Source of the DNA: Maribacter arenosus
GTDB lineage: Bacteria; Bacteroidota; Bacteroidia; Flavobacteriales; Flavobacteriaceae
Reading direction: 5' to 3'
Assembly (NCBI RefSeq): GCF_014610845.1
Contig: NZ_JABTCG010000005.1
Coordinates: 124,001-188,000, forward strand
DNA length: 64,000 bases
The notes under the pieces are model-generated. The model was not told the DNA's origin and searched no databases. It worked only from the letters and a program-made list of their open reading frames with translations. Shown piece by piece: positions 23,122-34,199 of the stretch (positions are counted from its first letter, which is position 1; each line of letters begins with the position of its first letter). The position numbers were made by a program, and so were the translations under genes.

Positions 23122-23268
23122 CCGTTACCCTTTTTTTTGATAGCAAAATAACAACATCCGTTCTTGCACGGCGGCATAAACCAGGCTCGCTATGCTCCCT
23201 CTTATTTATACGCCTTACCAAGCTCGGATATTGTAGTCCGTACAGCATCAAAAAAAGGGTAACAGCGG
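23122..23268. repeat. MITE-like element, copy 1
   Basis: About 147 bp bounded by inverted repeats: left CCGTTACCC plus a T-run and GAT (23122-23141), right ATC plus an A-run and GGGTAAC (23247-23263) then CGG. An internal near-palindrome joins GGCGGCATAAA and TTTATACGCC. A diverged copy in the same orientation is at 26014-26150. The minus-strand ORF across it (23042-23251) is explained by the repeat. Confidence 0.65.
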
Positions 23269-23370
23269 ACGGCCTTTAGTTTTGTTCTATAGATGAGATC
23301 TATTATGATGATGGTTTTGAAAAGAGGGGGTCCGGGGGAGACTCATAACTCATGATTTTGTTGATAAGTC

Positions 23371-23550
23371 AAAAAAAGGTGGGGCGAACCAAGGCGACGG
23401 CTAGGCATCAGGCTTTCATAGAGTAATGGGCCCTACCTTTTTATAAGGGATTACGGATATTTATATGGAATAGATTGAAAAAAGGACGGGGTGAACTTTA
23501 GCGACGGCCAGGTTCAAGGCCTTTATAGTGTACCAGTCCCTGTCCTTTAT
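23371..23550 (+). ncRNA. Candidate IS110 bridge RNA (two-loop guide RNA)
   Basis: Two related modules. Module 1 stem: AAAGGTGGGG (23375-23384) with CCCTACCTTT (23431-23440). Module 2 stem: AAAGGACGGGG (23481-23491) with CCCTGTCCTTT (23538-23548). The stems differ in sequence but keep pairing, including one G-U pair at the same place. Each encloses a smaller hairpin (GGCT/GGCT at 23399 and 23411; GGCC/GGCC at 23506 and 23518) with shared bases GAAC, GCGAC and ATAG around it. The bases between outer and inner stem vary, as guide segments would. Position upstream of the transposase and the two-loop form match known bridge RNAs. Ends are approximate. Confidence 0.65.
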
Positions 23551-23636
23551 AACCGGGTTGCCAGAACCAAATAGGATTTTAGCCCTTGCTAGTAAAGGTC
23601 TTAGTTTAAACAACCCTATTAAAGCAAAGTAAAAAT

Positions 23637-24626
23637 ATGGAAATCAAGGAAGTCATCGGTATCGATGTAAGTAAGTTGACAGTGGATTGTTGTATCCACC
23701 AAAGCCAAGAACTTAAAACGTTCAAGAACGATTCAGAAGGAATCTCGAAAATGATAGGTTGGTCCTTAAGGAAAAGTAAGGTCGATAAGGAGAATATTCT
23801 CTTTGTACTGGAGCATACCGGTCTCTACTCGGATTACTTGGTTCGGTCGCTGGATCGCGGCGATTACCAAATGAAAATAGTCAGCGGTCTCGAAATTAAA
23901 CGGTCCCTTGGAATCATCAGGGGCAAGAATGACAGGGCCGATTCAAAACGGATAGCCCTTTACGGTTATCGCACAAGGGAAGAGACCCTTCCAAGCAGGA
24001 TTCCCGGTTCTACCCTGACAAGGTTGAAACGGTTAATGTCCATGCGAAGGAAATTGGTAGGTCAACGGGCGGGTCATATGGCGACCCTCCGAGAGCAAAA
24101 AAGCGTACTGGAAGAGGATTCGCTCCTGTTCTGGGTTCAGGAGGATATCATCAACTTATTGAGTTGGCGGATAAACGACCTTGAACGGGAAATGGACAAA
24201 TTGATACAAGGGGATATTGAGCTGAAACGGATGCTCGCCCTTTTAACGGGTATCAAGGGAATCGGTAAAGTGACCGCCCGCTTTATGATCGTGTATACAG
24301 TAGGGTTTACTTCGTTCTCTACCTGGCGCAAGTTTGCCTCCTACTGTGGAATAGCGCCCTTTTCCCATACTTCCGGCACAAGTGTCAGGGGAAGGACCAA
24401 GGTCAGCCAATTGGCCAATAGGGAAGGTAAGGCCTTGTTGCACCAATGTTCCTTATCGGCCGTAAAATGCAATCCGGAGATGAAAGCATATTATGAACGA
24501 AGGCTTGAAATCGGAAAGAGCAAGATGAGCACGTTGAACATTATCAGGAACAAACTGGTGTCACGGGCCTTTGCCGTGGTGGCCAGGGGAACGCCTTATG
24601 TGAACACGATGGGATACGCCTCATAG
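23637..24626 (+). CDS. IS110-family transposase (DEDD recombinase)
   Basis: A 329-residue transposase. The RuvC-like N-terminal domain shows the acidic residues in IGIDVSKLTVD, LEHTGLYSD and KNDRADSKR. The C-terminal Tnp_20 domain includes LTGIKGIGKVTA and SGTSVRGRTKVSQLANREG, which carries the serine region thought to be the nucleophile. The frame is intact, so the element may be active. GC content and codons are similar to its neighbours. Confidence 0.93.
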   Translation: MEIKEVIGIDVSKLTVDCCIHQSQELKTFKNDSEGISKMIGWSLRKSKVDKENILFVLEHTGLYSDYLVRSLDRGDYQMKIVSGLEIKRSLGIIRGKNDRADSKRIALYGYRTREETLPSRIPGSTLTRLKRLMSMRRKLVGQRAGHMATLREQKSVLEEDSLLFWVQEDIINLLSWRINDLEREMDKLIQGDIELKRMLALLTGIKGIGKVTARFMIVYTVGFTSFSTWRKFASYCGIAPFSHTSGTSVRGRTKVSQLANREGKALLHQCSLSAVKCNPEMKAYYERRLEIGKSKMSTLNIIRNKLVSRAFAVVARGTPYVNTMGYAS

Positions 24627-24705
24627 CCAAATGTACAAGGGAAAAATTGGCTTCACTTCCGTTTTACGGGAGCATACTTTCTTTTGCCATGAAGGAAACG
24701 GTATT

Positions 24706-24903
24706 TCAGCAACAGCCCGAGCCTTTTTGAACGGGTGGACAGGGTTTGGTTCCAAAGGAACAGTATACACAGCAATCCCCTTCATTTGGTCTCAGTACAT
24801 CCCCACAGCTTTGGCAATCATAAAAAAACTGGCAAGAATCAGTGGGCATTTCCTCTTCCTTTTGATGTCCACAGTTTGGACAGGTAATTGTCGATTTTAG
24901 CAT
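24706..24903 (-). CDS. GDCCVxC-type cysteine-rich protein
   Basis: A 65-residue protein (start MLKSTITCPNCG; an ATG 12 nt earlier adds four residues). It has a CPNCG knuckle, CQSCGD and the family motif GDCCVYCSFGTKPCPP, ten cysteines in all. Relatives sit next to mercury transport genes and some are selenoproteins. It is the third gene of an ArsR-MerTP series and probably binds or passes on a soft metal such as mercury. Confidence 0.8.
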   Translation of the reverse strand: MLKSTITCPNCGHQKEEEMPTDSCQFFYDCQSCGDVLRPNEGDCCVYCSFGTKPCPPVQKGSGCC

Positions 24904-24911
24904 TACTTCTG

Positions 24912-25511
24912 TCATTTGTTAATTGTATATCCTGTCCTTAAAATGGCTTCTTTTATTTCTTGGGCAGTTGTCCTGCTTCCATCGTACTTAACTACAGTGT
25001 TTGCCTTTTGATAATCGGACTTGACCATAAGGATTCCATCCAGTTTGTTTACTTCGCTCTCAATATGGGCCTCGCATCCCGAACAGGTCATTCCCTTGAT
25101 GGAGAGGCTCACTTCATCAACATCGTTCTCCGATACGTAGACCACTTCCTTGCTCGTTTCTGTCGTTGGGTAGAAAATATGGGAATAATAGGGGAAAGCT
25201 AGCATGATTACGGCAAATATAGTGACCACGGCAAGGAACTTTTTGGATTGCCAAAAAGAAGGTTTTTCTTCTGCTTCACAGGCACAATCGATTTCCTCCT
25301 GTGTCCTAGGTCTCATCTTTTGGTACCATGCAAATACGAGTGCCAAAATCGTAATCCCTACTAAATAAGGCCGGAAAGGCTCAATAAAGGAAAAGGTCGA
25401 GGCGACACCCGTTGTTCCTGCCAGGAAGGCAAGTACCGGTGTTATGCAACATAGGGAAGCCGCTAGAGCGGTAATGACCGTAGTCCCGATTAGACTTTTG
25501 TTGTTATCCAT
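24912..25511 (-). CDS. merTP: Mercuric transport fusion protein MerTP
   Basis: A 199-residue fusion: an N-terminal MerT-like membrane part with a Cys pair in the first transmembrane helix (ASLCCITPV), further helices near residues 50 and 90-108, and a C-terminal heavy-metal-associated domain with GMTCSGCE. It should bring Hg(II) across the inner membrane. The start overlaps the end of the ArsR-type gene by 8 nt. No mercuric reductase (MerA) is visible nearby, so detoxification would depend on a gene elsewhere. Confidence 0.88.
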   Translation of the reverse strand: MDNNKSLIGTTVITALAASLCCITPVLAFLAGTTGVASTFSFIEPFRPYLVGITILALVFAWYQKMRPRTQEEIDCACEAEEKPSFWQSKKFLAVVTIFAVIMLAFPYYSHIFYPTTETSKEVVYVSENDVDEVSLSIKGMTCSGCEAHIESEVNKLDGILMVKSDYQKANTVVKYDGSRTTAQEIKEAILRTGYTINK

Positions 25512-25887
25512 TGTCCGTCGTTTTCAATAATTCTCTTTTGTCTATTGTTTCAAAAAACGGGGCAAGGATAGGTGCTTTGTCAGCTACTATCGAATAAAAG
25601 ATTACCTGCGCCTCCTTACTCGACTCAGTGAGGCCCCTATCCCTTAATTTTCTAAGATGTTGTGATATCGCCGACACGTTCATTTCCAGAATATCGCTCA
25701 GGTCGCATACACACAACCGGTCTTCTTGGTTCAATAAGTAAAGGATTTTTAGCCGTACCGAGTTCCCTGCTAAACTTAATATGCCGGATAGGGAATCGAA
25801 GGAACTATCCAATTTCCGGACGGTATCCCTGCAATCCATTATTTGCTTGGCATCGGCTTCCAGCCGGATACAGATATTATTTTTCAT
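25504..25887 (-). CDS. ArsR/SmtB-family metal-sensing repressor
   Basis: A 127-residue winged-helix repressor. It has the conserved SVRLKILYLL helix and the metal-site motif DRLCVCDLSD, followed by the recognition helix NVSAISQHLRKLRDRGL. Additional cysteines near the start (IMDCRD) may complete a thiol site. It overlaps merTP and takes the place normally held by MerR. A palindrome 26 nt upstream of the start may be its operator. Confidence 0.88.
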   Translation of the reverse strand: MKNNICIRLEADAKQIMDCRDTVRKLDSSFDSLSGILSLAGNSVRLKILYLLNQEDRLCVCDLSDILEMNVSAISQHLRKLRDRGLTESSKEAQVIFYSIVADKAPILAPFFETIDKRELLKTTDNG

Positions 25888-25912
25888 GGTACGAATATAA
25901 GCCTATTATCGT

Positions 25913-25932
25913 ATTTAAGCAAATGCTAAAAT
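25913..25932. promoter_or_regulatory. Candidate ArsR-type operator
   Basis: ATTTAAGCA (25913-25921) and TGCTAAAAT (25924-25932) form an imperfect palindrome (8 of 9 pairs) around 2 nt, close to the 12-2-12 form of ArsR/SmtB operators. It lies just upstream of the repressor gene. Confidence 0.45.
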
Positions 25933-26013
25933 ACATCAAATGATGCATTTGGTGCCGCTTCGTAGTCATTCGGTTTCTTTCAAGAGAAGGCTTTGACTTA
26001 CCAACGCACCATA

Positions 26014-26150
26014 CCGTTTCCTCTTTTTTGACAGCAAAACAACAACATCCATTCTTGGACGGCGGCATAAACCGTTGCGCTTCGCTCCACTATTTATACG
26101 CCTTACCAAGCCTGGATATTGTGACCCATCAAGCATCAAAAAAAGGTAAC
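26014..26150. repeat. MITE-like element, copy 2
   Basis: A diverged copy of 23122-23268 in the same orientation, with identical stretches such as AACAACATCC, ACGGCGGCATAAACC and ATTTATACGCCTTACCAAGC. Its end pairs (CCGTTTCC with the right-hand GGTAAC) are weaker. The two copies bracket the IS110 element and the mercury module. Confidence 0.65.
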
Positions 26151-26161
26151 GTGAAGGCTCT

Positions 26162-26530
26162 ATGGGAAGTAAATCAAATCCGAATATCATGAAAGCGAAT
26201 CCAAAACTTAAAAACGAAACGGTACGAAAAAAATCAAAAAAGGAAAACGCTCAGGATATAATAAGTAAATCGATTGAAAGCCTACACGCAAAAAACTCGG
26301 TTGTTATAGAAAAAGTTTATGATGGAAAATTTGGATTTACCATAGGATACACTATGGGAAGTAAATCAAAAACAAAAAAGATGAAATCGTACGGAATCAA
26401 CAAAAAGGAAGCGGAACAAAAGTTAAAGATCAAAAAAAGGGAAAACGCTCCGGATATAATAAGTAAATCATTCAAAAACCGCTCGAAGGGTTCGGGCGGT
26501 TCAATTATAAATCCTTTAAATATTTCAGTT
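26162..26530 (+). repeat. In-frame duplicated segment upstream of ssb
   Basis: Two diverged copies of about 64 codons share MGSKS (ATG at 26162 and 26354, 192 nt apart) and ENAxDIISKS (198 nt apart). Both spacings are multiples of three and the frame is open into ssb without a stop. This suggests translated DNA: either a lysine-rich 123-residue extension of SSB or a former separate gene. An 11-bp hairpin (arms 26477-26487 and 26491-26501, loop GGG) precedes the ssb start. Confidence 0.5.
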
Positions 26531-26884
26531 ATGAGTAATCTAAGAAACAAAGTCCAACTAATTGGCAACGTGGGGAACGACCCCGAAATGACCGTTTTGG
26601 AAAGTGGTAAAAAAGTAATCCGTTTTTCATTGGCGACCAATGAAAACTACAAGAACGCCAAAGGCGAGAAAGTACAAAGTACGGACTGGCATAATATGGT
26701 GGCTTGGGGCAAGACGGCCGAGATCGTTGAAAAGTATGCCGTCAAAGGCAAGCAAATCGCCATCGAGGGCAAATTGACTTCTCGAAGCTATGAAACCAAG
26801 GAAGGCGAAAAACGTTACATCACCGAAGTAATCGTTAGCGAGGTTTTGTTATTAGGTGCAAAGAACGAAAACAGGGCAGCCTAA
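26531..26884 (+). CDS. ssb: Single-stranded DNA-binding protein
   Basis: A 117-residue OB-fold SSB starting at MSNLRNKVQLIGNVG. Typical motifs are VIRFSLATNENY, STDWHNMVAWGKTAE and GKQIAIEGKLTSRSYE. The acidic C-terminal tip of chromosomal SSBs is missing (it ends KNENRAA), as is common for plasmid and ICE versions. It protects single-stranded transfer DNA. The frame stays open upstream to 26162, so a longer product is possible. Confidence 0.9.
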   Translation: MSNLRNKVQLIGNVGNDPEMTVLESGKKVIRFSLATNENYKNAKGEKVQSTDWHNMVAWGKTAEIVEKYAVKGKQIAIEGKLTSRSYETKEGEKRYITEVIVSEVLLLGAKNENRAA

Positions 26885-32645: not shown

Positions 32646-34199
32646 TTACTTGTAGTTGGAAGCTCCCCTTATATTTTGATGTTCCGGTATATGGGGCCTG
32701 TCCTCTTCCAGATCTTGGAAGAACAGTGAGCTTTCGTCAAGGTTGTTCTTCAGGATATTCCGGATGCGCCTATAGCTGACGGCATCGGCCTGCAAGGCCC
32801 GTTTGCAGGCATTGTCCAATCGCCGTGAACCGTAAGACCTATGTAACTGTATGACGCCCATGGCCCTTTTGTACCCTATCTCCGGATAATCGACACGGGC
32901 GATGATCTGCTCCACACAGGCGGCTACGTTGTTGCCGTGGGGGATCGCCCTGTTCCTGAAGAATTCCGGGCTCCAGTCGCTATAATGTCTATGGGTACTG
33001 CCCAGATGTTCCTTGTTGGTGGTATAGAACCCTTTGGAACCGTTGCGTTGGTGCAGCGCGATGCGCTGGCGGTTATAAAATACCTCTACCGCGCTCTTGG
33101 TATAATGGATAACGGTCTCCCTGCCGATATAACGATAGGGAACGCTATAGTAGGATTTGTCGGGGGAAAAATAGACATATCCTATTTTCTGCACTTTTGC
33201 CCTACAGTAGTCCTTGAGCTCGTAACGCGCGGCGGGCAGGGGCTTCAGGTATCCGCGTTCCGCGGACTGGAAGAGTTCCAGGCGGCTGGCCTCCTTGCGT
33301 TTGAACAACAGGTCGTTATAGCGTTCCAATAGGCTCTTTATCTCCCGGTTCAGGTCTTGCAGGGAGAAGAAGGTCATCTCCCGTAAGGGGTAATAGATAC
33401 GTTGGTAGGCGAGATGGACGGCATTCTCCACCAAGGCCTTGTCTTGCGGCGAATAGCCCCGTGCAGGATTGATCACGCAGTTGTAATGGCGCGCAAAGTC
33501 CTTGAAACTGCGGTTGATCTGCGCTTCGTACCTGCTGGATCTCGTGACGGCGGACTTCTGGTTGTCCGACACGATGGCCTTGGGTACGCCCCCATAAAAA
33601 CGTAGGGCGTTGTCGCAGCAGCCGATCAGGTCTTCCCGCTTTTGGCTCTTGCAGGCCTCTACATAGGTATACTGGCTATTGGGGAGTATCGCCACGAATA
33701 CCTCGACCGGAACGACTTCACCGGTGCGTTTGTCCACGACATGCAATTTCTTGCCCGCGAAGTCGATGAACATCTCCTTACCGGCCTCGTGTTCGAGTTT
33801 CATCGAACCCTTGATCTTTGCGTATTTGCGACGGTAGTGTTCCATGAACTGCGTATACCCGTACGGCTCCTTTGCCCTTTGCGCATATTCGTTATAATGG
33901 AACAGAAAGGTAAAGCCGGGATGGTTCCGGGCCTTGTTCATCCCCTCGAAATAGAGCATTAGCGCATCGTACCTTTCATTGTCGATGGTGGTACGGGAAG
34001 TGAAAAGTACCTCTAGGCGGGCATTCTCGAAGGTCAGCAGTTCCTTGAAGGTATAGTCGCTCCCCTTGAACAGGCGCATATACGTATTTACCGTATTGCG
34101 GGAGATGCCCAGGGAAACCCCTATGTTGCGGTTGCTGTAACCGTCAAGGTGTAAAGTGATAATCTGTTTTAGGTCCATTGGATCAAGTGTGTTGGCCAT
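32646..34199 (-). CDS. istA: IS21-family transposase IstA
   Basis: A 517-residue DDE transposase. The N-terminal helix-turn-helix is NIGVSLGISRNTVNTYMRLF; the rve integrase core starts near residue 135 (KEMFIDFAGKKLHVVD, first Asp) and includes AIVSDNQKSAV and YSPQDKALVENAVHL (Asp and Glu). The C-terminal Mu-like region follows. MDLKQII at 34178 is an alternative start. Intact, so the element may be mobile. Confidence 0.95.
   Translation of the reverse strand: MANTLDPMDLKQIITLHLDGYSNRNIGVSLGISRNTVNTYMRLFKGSDYTFKELLTFENARLEVLFTSRTTIDNERYDALMLYFEGMNKARNHPGFTFLFHYNEYAQRAKEPYGYTQFMEHYRRKYAKIKGSMKLEHEAGKEMFIDFAGKKLHVVDKRTGEVVPVEVFVAILPNSQYTYVEACKSQKREDLIGCCDNALRFYGGVPKAIVSDNQKSAVTRSSRYEAQINRSFKDFARHYNCVINPARGYSPQDKALVENAVHLAYQRIYYPLREMTFFSLQDLNREIKSLLERYNDLLFKRKEASRLELFQSAERGYLKPLPAARYELKDYCRAKVQKIGYVYFSPDKSYYSVPYRYIGRETVIHYTKSAVEVFYNRQRIALHQRNGSKGFYTTNKEHLGSTHRHYSDWSPEFFRNRAIPHGNNVAACVEQIIARVDYPEIGYKRAMGVIQLHRSYGSRRLDNACKRALQADAVSYRRIRNILKNNLDESSLFFQDLEEDRPHIPEHQNIRGASNYK

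Follow-up and report, generated by a model that had tools for sequence, protein, structure and literature searches.

A candidate bridge RNA with two target-binding loops in an IS110-group element of Maribacter arenosus

The mobile element at 23274-26349 of the window (the whole stretch of 64,000 nucleotides of Maribacter arenosus DNA that was analysed; features lie on its plus strand unless stated otherwise) carries upstream of its recombinase gene what is probably (at about 0.62) an IS110-group bridge RNA equipped with an additional target-binding loop, which would provide two addresses for two alleles of one site. Two stem-loop modules, M1 (23371-23442) and M2 (23477-23550), are on sequence comparison both target-binding loops, and the donor-binding loop is a third structure at 23553-23617. 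The two target loops are new with respect to the literature examined, which, as far as its text was available, describes bridge RNAs with one target loop and one donor loop. The complete unit consists, in this order, of the bridge RNA, the IS110 recombinase, a MerT/ArsR cargo, a copy of the pre-target sequence and the right end.

Recombinase and relatives

The gene at 23637-24626 encodes an intact IS110 recombinase of 329 amino acids. The protein matches the Pfam domains DEDD_Tnp_IS110 (PF01548) and Transposase_20 (PF02371) above cut-off as well as the IS621 (8wt6, E 1.5e-19) and ISCro4 proteins in the PDB. The acidic residues and the serine named for IS621 in the available text align to D, E, D, D and S, an assignment made by motif that assumes an offset in the chain numbering. 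Together with the guide-flank matches described below, which lie far beyond those of shuffles, these domains bear out the earlier note's proposal of an IS110 bridge RNA. The features that characterise IS110 elements were found: a DEDD plus serine recombinase, a predicted structured RNA in the noncoding left end (the target-loop model matches upstream of the gene), a loop matching the insertion site, a loop matching the joined ends, and precise insertion. The RNA departs from the pattern of one target and one donor loop through its two target-loop modules, present in seven elements; it is treated here as a variant, as varied bridge RNA structures are reported in the accessible part of PMC11208160. 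In the IS1111 group the RNA lies in the right end, whereas here the target-loop matches lie upstream of the gene. A known RNA family for the stem-loops was considered and rejected, two tRNAs being the only RNA family matches in the window.

The recombinase was detected at E 1e-60 or better in 26 of 397 genomes of the family, and at 35 loci in a scan of named genomes. Both modules occur in six distinct relatives at 75-91% identity, so that seven elements are available with that of the window: Eudoraea (L053, the same locus as L004), Allomuricauda (L033), an uncultured Flavobacteriaceae (L034), Leeuwenhoekiella (L035, the same locus as L005), Aequorivita (L036) and Salegentibacter (L037). Strains with a two-loop element include Eudoraea chungangensis KCTC 42048 and Leeuwenhoekiella polynyae LMG 29608. 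More distant relatives (L038, L039, L041) possess a single module, the counterpart of M2, and every relative outside the seven with a readable loop has one target loop. In a tree of 37 rows the two-loop elements form one clade (100/100), corresponding to one change. The region is present once in full in the genome; plasmid matches all stay below 60% identity, and no relative was found on viral contigs. A further search for two-loop elements in overlapping draws of 395 genomes of the order, 396 of the family and 395 of the family at ≥ 98% completeness yielded G820, which occupies the contig position of L034, as well as fragments situated at the edges of contigs. Left-end fragments of such elements stop at the contig edges of G212 (L107, L114), which suggests further copies broken by assembly.

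Extent, insertion and cargo

The extent of 3,076 bp follows from homology with the ends of single-loop relatives and from the empty site of L034. The right end (26305-26349) includes a TTG (26331-26333) for the joint promoter. The same sequence lies soon 3′ of the gene in L006, L038, L041 and L042, at 29-102 bp past the coding match in single-loop relatives, and far downstream of it in each of the seven two-loop elements. Six of these measure 3,076 (window), 3,805, 1,876, 2,634, 1,877 and 1,897 bp. The border that the earlier note had presumed near 24632 is thus wrong, as judged from the two-loop relatives and the joined flanks of L034, and the echo of loop bases seen there (TGTAC) is probably due to chance.

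The element is flanked by the left target half GCGGACGGC (23265-23273), whose last C is common to the right junction and which was delimited by guide-flank matching and joined-flank comparison, and by the right flank CACTATGGGAAGTAAATC (26350-26367), the right target half. When the joined flanks of L034 are compared with the empty site in genome G377, 317 of 329 positions match, with one gap far from the junction. Such an ungapped junction match to the joined flanks of a relative was found for 1 of the 87 unoccupied sites read. The ungapped junction means that the whole unit, cargo and internal repeat copy included, was inserted there with one shared C. On this sequence comparison of a relative, insertion is precise and does not duplicate the target.

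The cargo comprises a gene for MerT plus a heavy-metal-associated domain (24912-25511, minus strand) and one for an ArsR-type regulator (25504-25887, minus strand). L053 carries similar genes and one that was taken by eye for a cation-efflux gene. The internal repeat copy, R1′ (26020-26168), includes a diverged target (GTGAAGG C TCTATGGG). Cargo and R1′ lie between the recombinase gene and the right end; the unit moves together with a duplicate of the pre-target sequence and, in some copies, with cargo. After insertion, R1′ recreates the repeat R1 upstream of ssb and may in this way protect ssb expression.

Structure and conservation of the two modules

The like layout of M1 and M2, described in the earlier note, is confirmed at both places, and both modules fold better than dinucleotide shuffles. 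M1 has a z-score of -2.44 (3/200 shuffles fold at least as well) and M2 one of -2.13 (5/200); the fold of the whole leader (z 0.54) was dropped as evidence. The outer stems indeed use different pairs while remaining paired, GGTGGGG/CCCTACC in M1 and GGACGGGG/CCCTGTCC in M2. The note had tied its idea to conservation of the stems across copies, and the stems are conserved and covary between species. In a hand alignment, 59 of 63 cells of the M1 outer stem are paired (10,000 shuffles: mean 46.3, maximum 56), with C-G, A-U and U-A at one position.

A covariance model of the target loop was built from 29 single-loop elements only (10 of its 16 pairs show two-sided changes) and run on 67 sources, window included. 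In the window it matches M2 with 66.7 bits (E 2.3e-12) and M1 with 37.1 bits (E 2e-5), and the only other match up to E 1 is on the minus strand (E 0.86). Because the model never saw M1, the match counts for M1 as a target loop. M1 is likewise recognised in L033 (E 2.3e-7), L034 (3.2e-6), L037 (4.4e-6) and L053 (3.3e-5); in L036 (0.0082) and L035 (0.22) it is weak and within the range of mirror-image matches on the opposite strand, which reach 31 bits. Full-length sense matches with E < 1e-3 were obtained in 58 of the 67 sources; in two others the match is truncated by a contig end, and the remaining seven lack one. The 58 consist of the seven two-loop loci (eight sources, as L005 equals L035) and 50 others, which are not all distinct loci and of which 29 are in the model. 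Among these 50, a second sense match below E 0.4 occurs only in L020, at a distance of 2.1 kb.

In six two-loop elements (L037 left out), invariant columns make up 33 of 72 in M1 (46%), 4 of 34 in the spacer after it (12%), 53 of 74 in M2 (72%) and 51 of 65 in the donor loop. The left guide of M1 retains GCGACGG in 7/7 elements, next to a scrambled spacer. The Salegentibacter element (L037:2745-2960) shows a tandem duplication of ~97 nt that takes in the greater part of M2 and the beginning of the donor loop, which places three target-loop cores in a row.

Target guides

Each module contains a left and a right target guide. These are GGCGACGGC (23393-23401) and TCTAT (23418-23422) in M1, and AGCGACGGC (23500-23508) and ACTAT (23525-23529) in M2. 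Across 33 elements, 210 of 297 left-flank positions agree with the 9-nt left guide of M2-type loops (10,000 flank shuffles: mean 100.1, maximum 139), a score that keeps rows seemingly shifted by ~1 base (L016, L031, L044, L055) without realignment. The five bases of the right guide agree with the right flank in 30, 33, 35, 31 and 28 of 35 cases, and the two positions past them do not match (2/35, 6/35). Rows without a readable flank and 14 loci failing the motif search are omitted from these counts. Single-loop elements alone give 172/243 on the left and 131/196 on the right, and no shuffle scored as high. L033 has a left match of 3/9 in this score. The window reaches 5/5 on the right and, ungapped, 6/9 on the left, because its left flank holds an extra base.

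From these matches the M2-type loop is identified as the target loop. Since M1 has the scaffold of this loop and the same left guide as M2, it is taken as a second target loop. The agreement with insertion sites, on which the earlier note had staked its idea, is therefore present for the M2-type guides. Two of its details were not confirmed. The bases shared by the modules, GCGACGGC (with CGACGGC in common), were read as scaffold; they are the left target guide, which varies between elements elsewhere and matches the left flank. The echo of CTTTAG at the left end (23274) is probably chance, as CTTT belongs to the near-constant loop scaffold (GTGAACTTT in most relatives) and is followed by the first guide bases.

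The left guide is the same in M1 and M2, whereas the first base of the right guide differs between them in 7/7 elements. In M1 it is T in six elements and A in L036; in M2, four elements have A and three have G. In each of the seven, one loop and not the other matches the occupied right flank 5/5: M2 in the window, L053, L033, L034 and L037, and M1 in L035 and L036. Calculated from site allele counts and summed by hand, about 1.1 perfect matches are expected by chance for M2 (5 found) and about 2.5 for M1 (2 found). The chance that one of the two right guides fits every occupied site is roughly 0.006, a hand calculation that treats non-independent sites as independent. The bases beside the M1 right guide deviate from the constant GTA in 4/7 elements.

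Donor-binding loop

A third stem-loop sits between M2 and the recombinase gene (23553-23617). It carries ATAGGAT or ATAGAAT (ATAGGAT at 23571-23577 in the window), and the variable base agrees with the right end in 36/36 elements (G in 13, A in 23); one clade comprises exactly the 13 rows with G, so that the pattern amounts to about one change and not to 36 events. CCTTTA at the left end has its complement in TAAAGG (23593-23598) of the loop. Agreement with the right end and complementarity to the left end assign it as the donor loop. The expectation that loops match the joined ends is thus satisfied by the third stem-loop and not by M1 or M2, and the span 23371-23550 proposed in the note holds both modules and omits this structure. 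An outer stem GGTTGC/GCAACC is seen by eye and is absent from the RNAalifold consensus of the donor loop; the assignment does not draw on that fold.

Target site and host

The left flank consists of a repeat, R1 (23129-23262), which is common to unoccupied sites and recurs at 26020-26146 (direct repeats D2/D3; 20-nt minimum in the search). R1-like DNA was found in 76 of 397 family genomes. Together with the ssb leader (23129-23273), R1 represents a conserved locus of flavobacterial conjugative elements; the locus has no Rfam match in the window. The element is surrounded by ssb, radC, a type IV coupling protein, TraM and a TraG-like ATPase, which identifies the host as a conjugative element. 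A Mu-type transposase gene (rve and Mu-transpos_C_2 domains) is located at 32646-34199 of the same conjugative region.

The target directly precedes an open frame leading into ssb. In the window, a single open frame of 240 aa (26162-26884) links the internal copy to SSB by way of the right end and the target; insertion thereby adds an in-frame N-terminal stretch to SSB; in L053 and L034 ssb is a separate frame.

Of 99 listed R1-like places, 90 were read; the other nine are the left flanks of three occupied sites and six short or weak places. Three of the 90 are internal copies with a right end downstream and were dropped, leaving 87 unoccupied sites. No left end adjoins these sites and no right end lies within 260 nt, one of the 90 stretches read being short; they take the form AACAGCGACGGC TCTATGGGAAGTAAATC. 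The base after the shared C, which is read by the first right-guide base, is T in 51, G in 17, A in 15 and C in 4 of them, and with 1.55 bits it is the most variable of the right half. The most variable target base overall lies in the left half (1.66 bits). There both loops read the commonest letter, C (46/87), and the variation at this base is therefore not covered.

In a flank tree of 92 rows, the common ancestor of six occupied sites spans all rows. L034, L035, L036 and L033 are nearest to an empty site, and occupied sites are scattered among empty ones, a pattern that suggests repeated insertion. The empty sites nearest to L035 have G, and its own flank has T.

Promoter-like box and proposed mechanism

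The left end contains a promoter-like box, TAGTTTTG (23277-23284). When the ends are joined, 20 of 25 elements, window included, gain a TTG from the right end upstream of TAGnTTT, at a distance of 20 nt in 19 cases and of 19 nt in one; the spacing is absent in L009, L010, L036, L037 and L039, two of which are two-loop elements. We take this arrangement to resemble a Bacteroidota promoter. A G-rich block, GAAAAGAGGGGGTCCGGGGGAGACTCATAAC (23318-23350), presumably forms the 5′ hairpin of the RNA. With 31 of 33 columns invariant in six two-loop elements it is the most conserved part of the RNA, and it recurs in several single-loop relatives and is absent from others.

The RNA would begin with the G-rich 5′ block, followed by M1 as target loop 1, M2 as target loop 2, the donor loop and then the recombinase gene. 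Transcription would probably start from the circular form, in which the joined ends complete the promoter. Dimers of the recombinase would bind the donor loop and one or other of the target loops. For IS621, the accessible text of PMC11208158 states that a single complex probably takes its target loop and its donor loop from different RNA molecules, and that recombination proceeds in vitro with the loops supplied as separate molecules. By analogy, loading of dimers on each of two target loops is plausible. Both loops would recognise the shared left half GCGACGGC, and the first right-half base would be T for M1 (A in one relative) and A or G for M2. The natural target would be the conserved site before ssb in flavobacterial conjugative elements, which varies at that right-half base, and one RNA would thus supply addresses for two alleles of one site. 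The bases next to the right guide of IS621 form handshake pairs with the donor according to the same text; where M1 departs from GTA, it may, by analogy, work less well.

Alternative readings

An active M1 is favoured by the retention of its structure and of its left guide and by its consistent difference from M2, in a small sample of seven elements whose kinship makes them non-independent. A duplicate target loop undergoing drift after falling out of use, with M2 alone guiding insertion, would also explain several observations: the lower conservation of M1, its lower model score in all seven elements, its flank matches at chance level and its departures from GTA. Such decay is nevertheless rather unlikely, as the M1 stem covaries, GCGACGG persists beside a scrambled spacer, and M1 provides the perfect right-guide match in precisely the two elements that M2 misses. 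M1 might instead address the internal target copy in R1′, for example by letting another circle insert there and add cargo. By eye, the first right-guide base of M1 agrees with the internal copy in 5/7 elements (not in L033 and L037), and that of M2 in 0/7. The internal copy, however, has one or more left-guide mismatches in the seven elements, and T is in any case the most frequent base of such sites (51/87), which leaves this reading with a small probability.

Two tandem modules with internal loops, as in the available description of IS621 (PMC11208160), speak for the assignment in the earlier note of one to the target and the other to the donor. This division is nevertheless very improbable, given that the target-loop scaffold and one left target guide are common to M1 and M2, and that single-module relatives keep both a flank-matching counterpart of M2 and a separate, end-matching third stem-loop. 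Equally improbable are stem-loops that form a leader controlling recombinase expression and do not guide DNA. They do lie directly upstream of the gene, and PMC11208160, in its accessible part, cites small RNAs of ISPpu9 that are thought to modulate recombinase expression; yet the loop bases change together with the insertion sites across elements, which a leader would not need. The reading as a bridge RNA with an extra target-binding loop is therefore retained. Its fuller version, a natural multiplex bridge RNA through which one recombinase uses two target addresses of one transcript for two alleles of a conserved site, on an IS110 transposon that carries cargo and brings its own pre-target copy so that ssb keeps its leader, is tentative, at a little under even odds.

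Comparison with known systems

The element resembles IS621, as far as PMC11208160 and PMC11208158 were accessible, in its DEDD recombinase, in an RNA upstream of the gene with the target loop before the donor loop, in the 9-nt left guide and short right guide, and in the absence of target duplication. The completion of a promoter on joining of the ends is a further likeness (PMC11208160). It differs in that IS621 has one target and one donor loop, while here a second target loop precedes the first; the junction contains one shared C instead of a CT core; and cargo and a copy of the sequence upstream of the target are carried. The single-loop Bacteroidota relatives (L038, L039, L041, L042) have the same target-loop scaffold, donor loop, end sequences and joint promoter-like boxes, but only one target loop, other targets and a right end 29-102 bp after the coding match. 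ISEc21 and the seekRNA of IS110/IS1111 elements are similar in that RNA from a noncoding region guides the choice of site and insertion is precise and without duplication (PMC11187229, available text). The same text does not mention "two seekRNA" or "second seekRNA". In the accessible bridge RNA and seekRNA literature, a scope that leaves aside bioRxiv and most subscription journals, a natural RNA with two target loops was not found.

Significance

The element may recognise two versions of one landing site. A tandem target-loop RNA kept across a clade would show how a target can be widened or shifted without loss of the old address, and multiplexed bridge-RNA designs would gain a natural model. 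Since flavobacterial conjugative elements contain many such sites, both occupied and empty, the guide rules can be tested by comparing them. Additionally, the element shows IS110 machinery moving cargo genes, here for metal resistance, as a defined unit.
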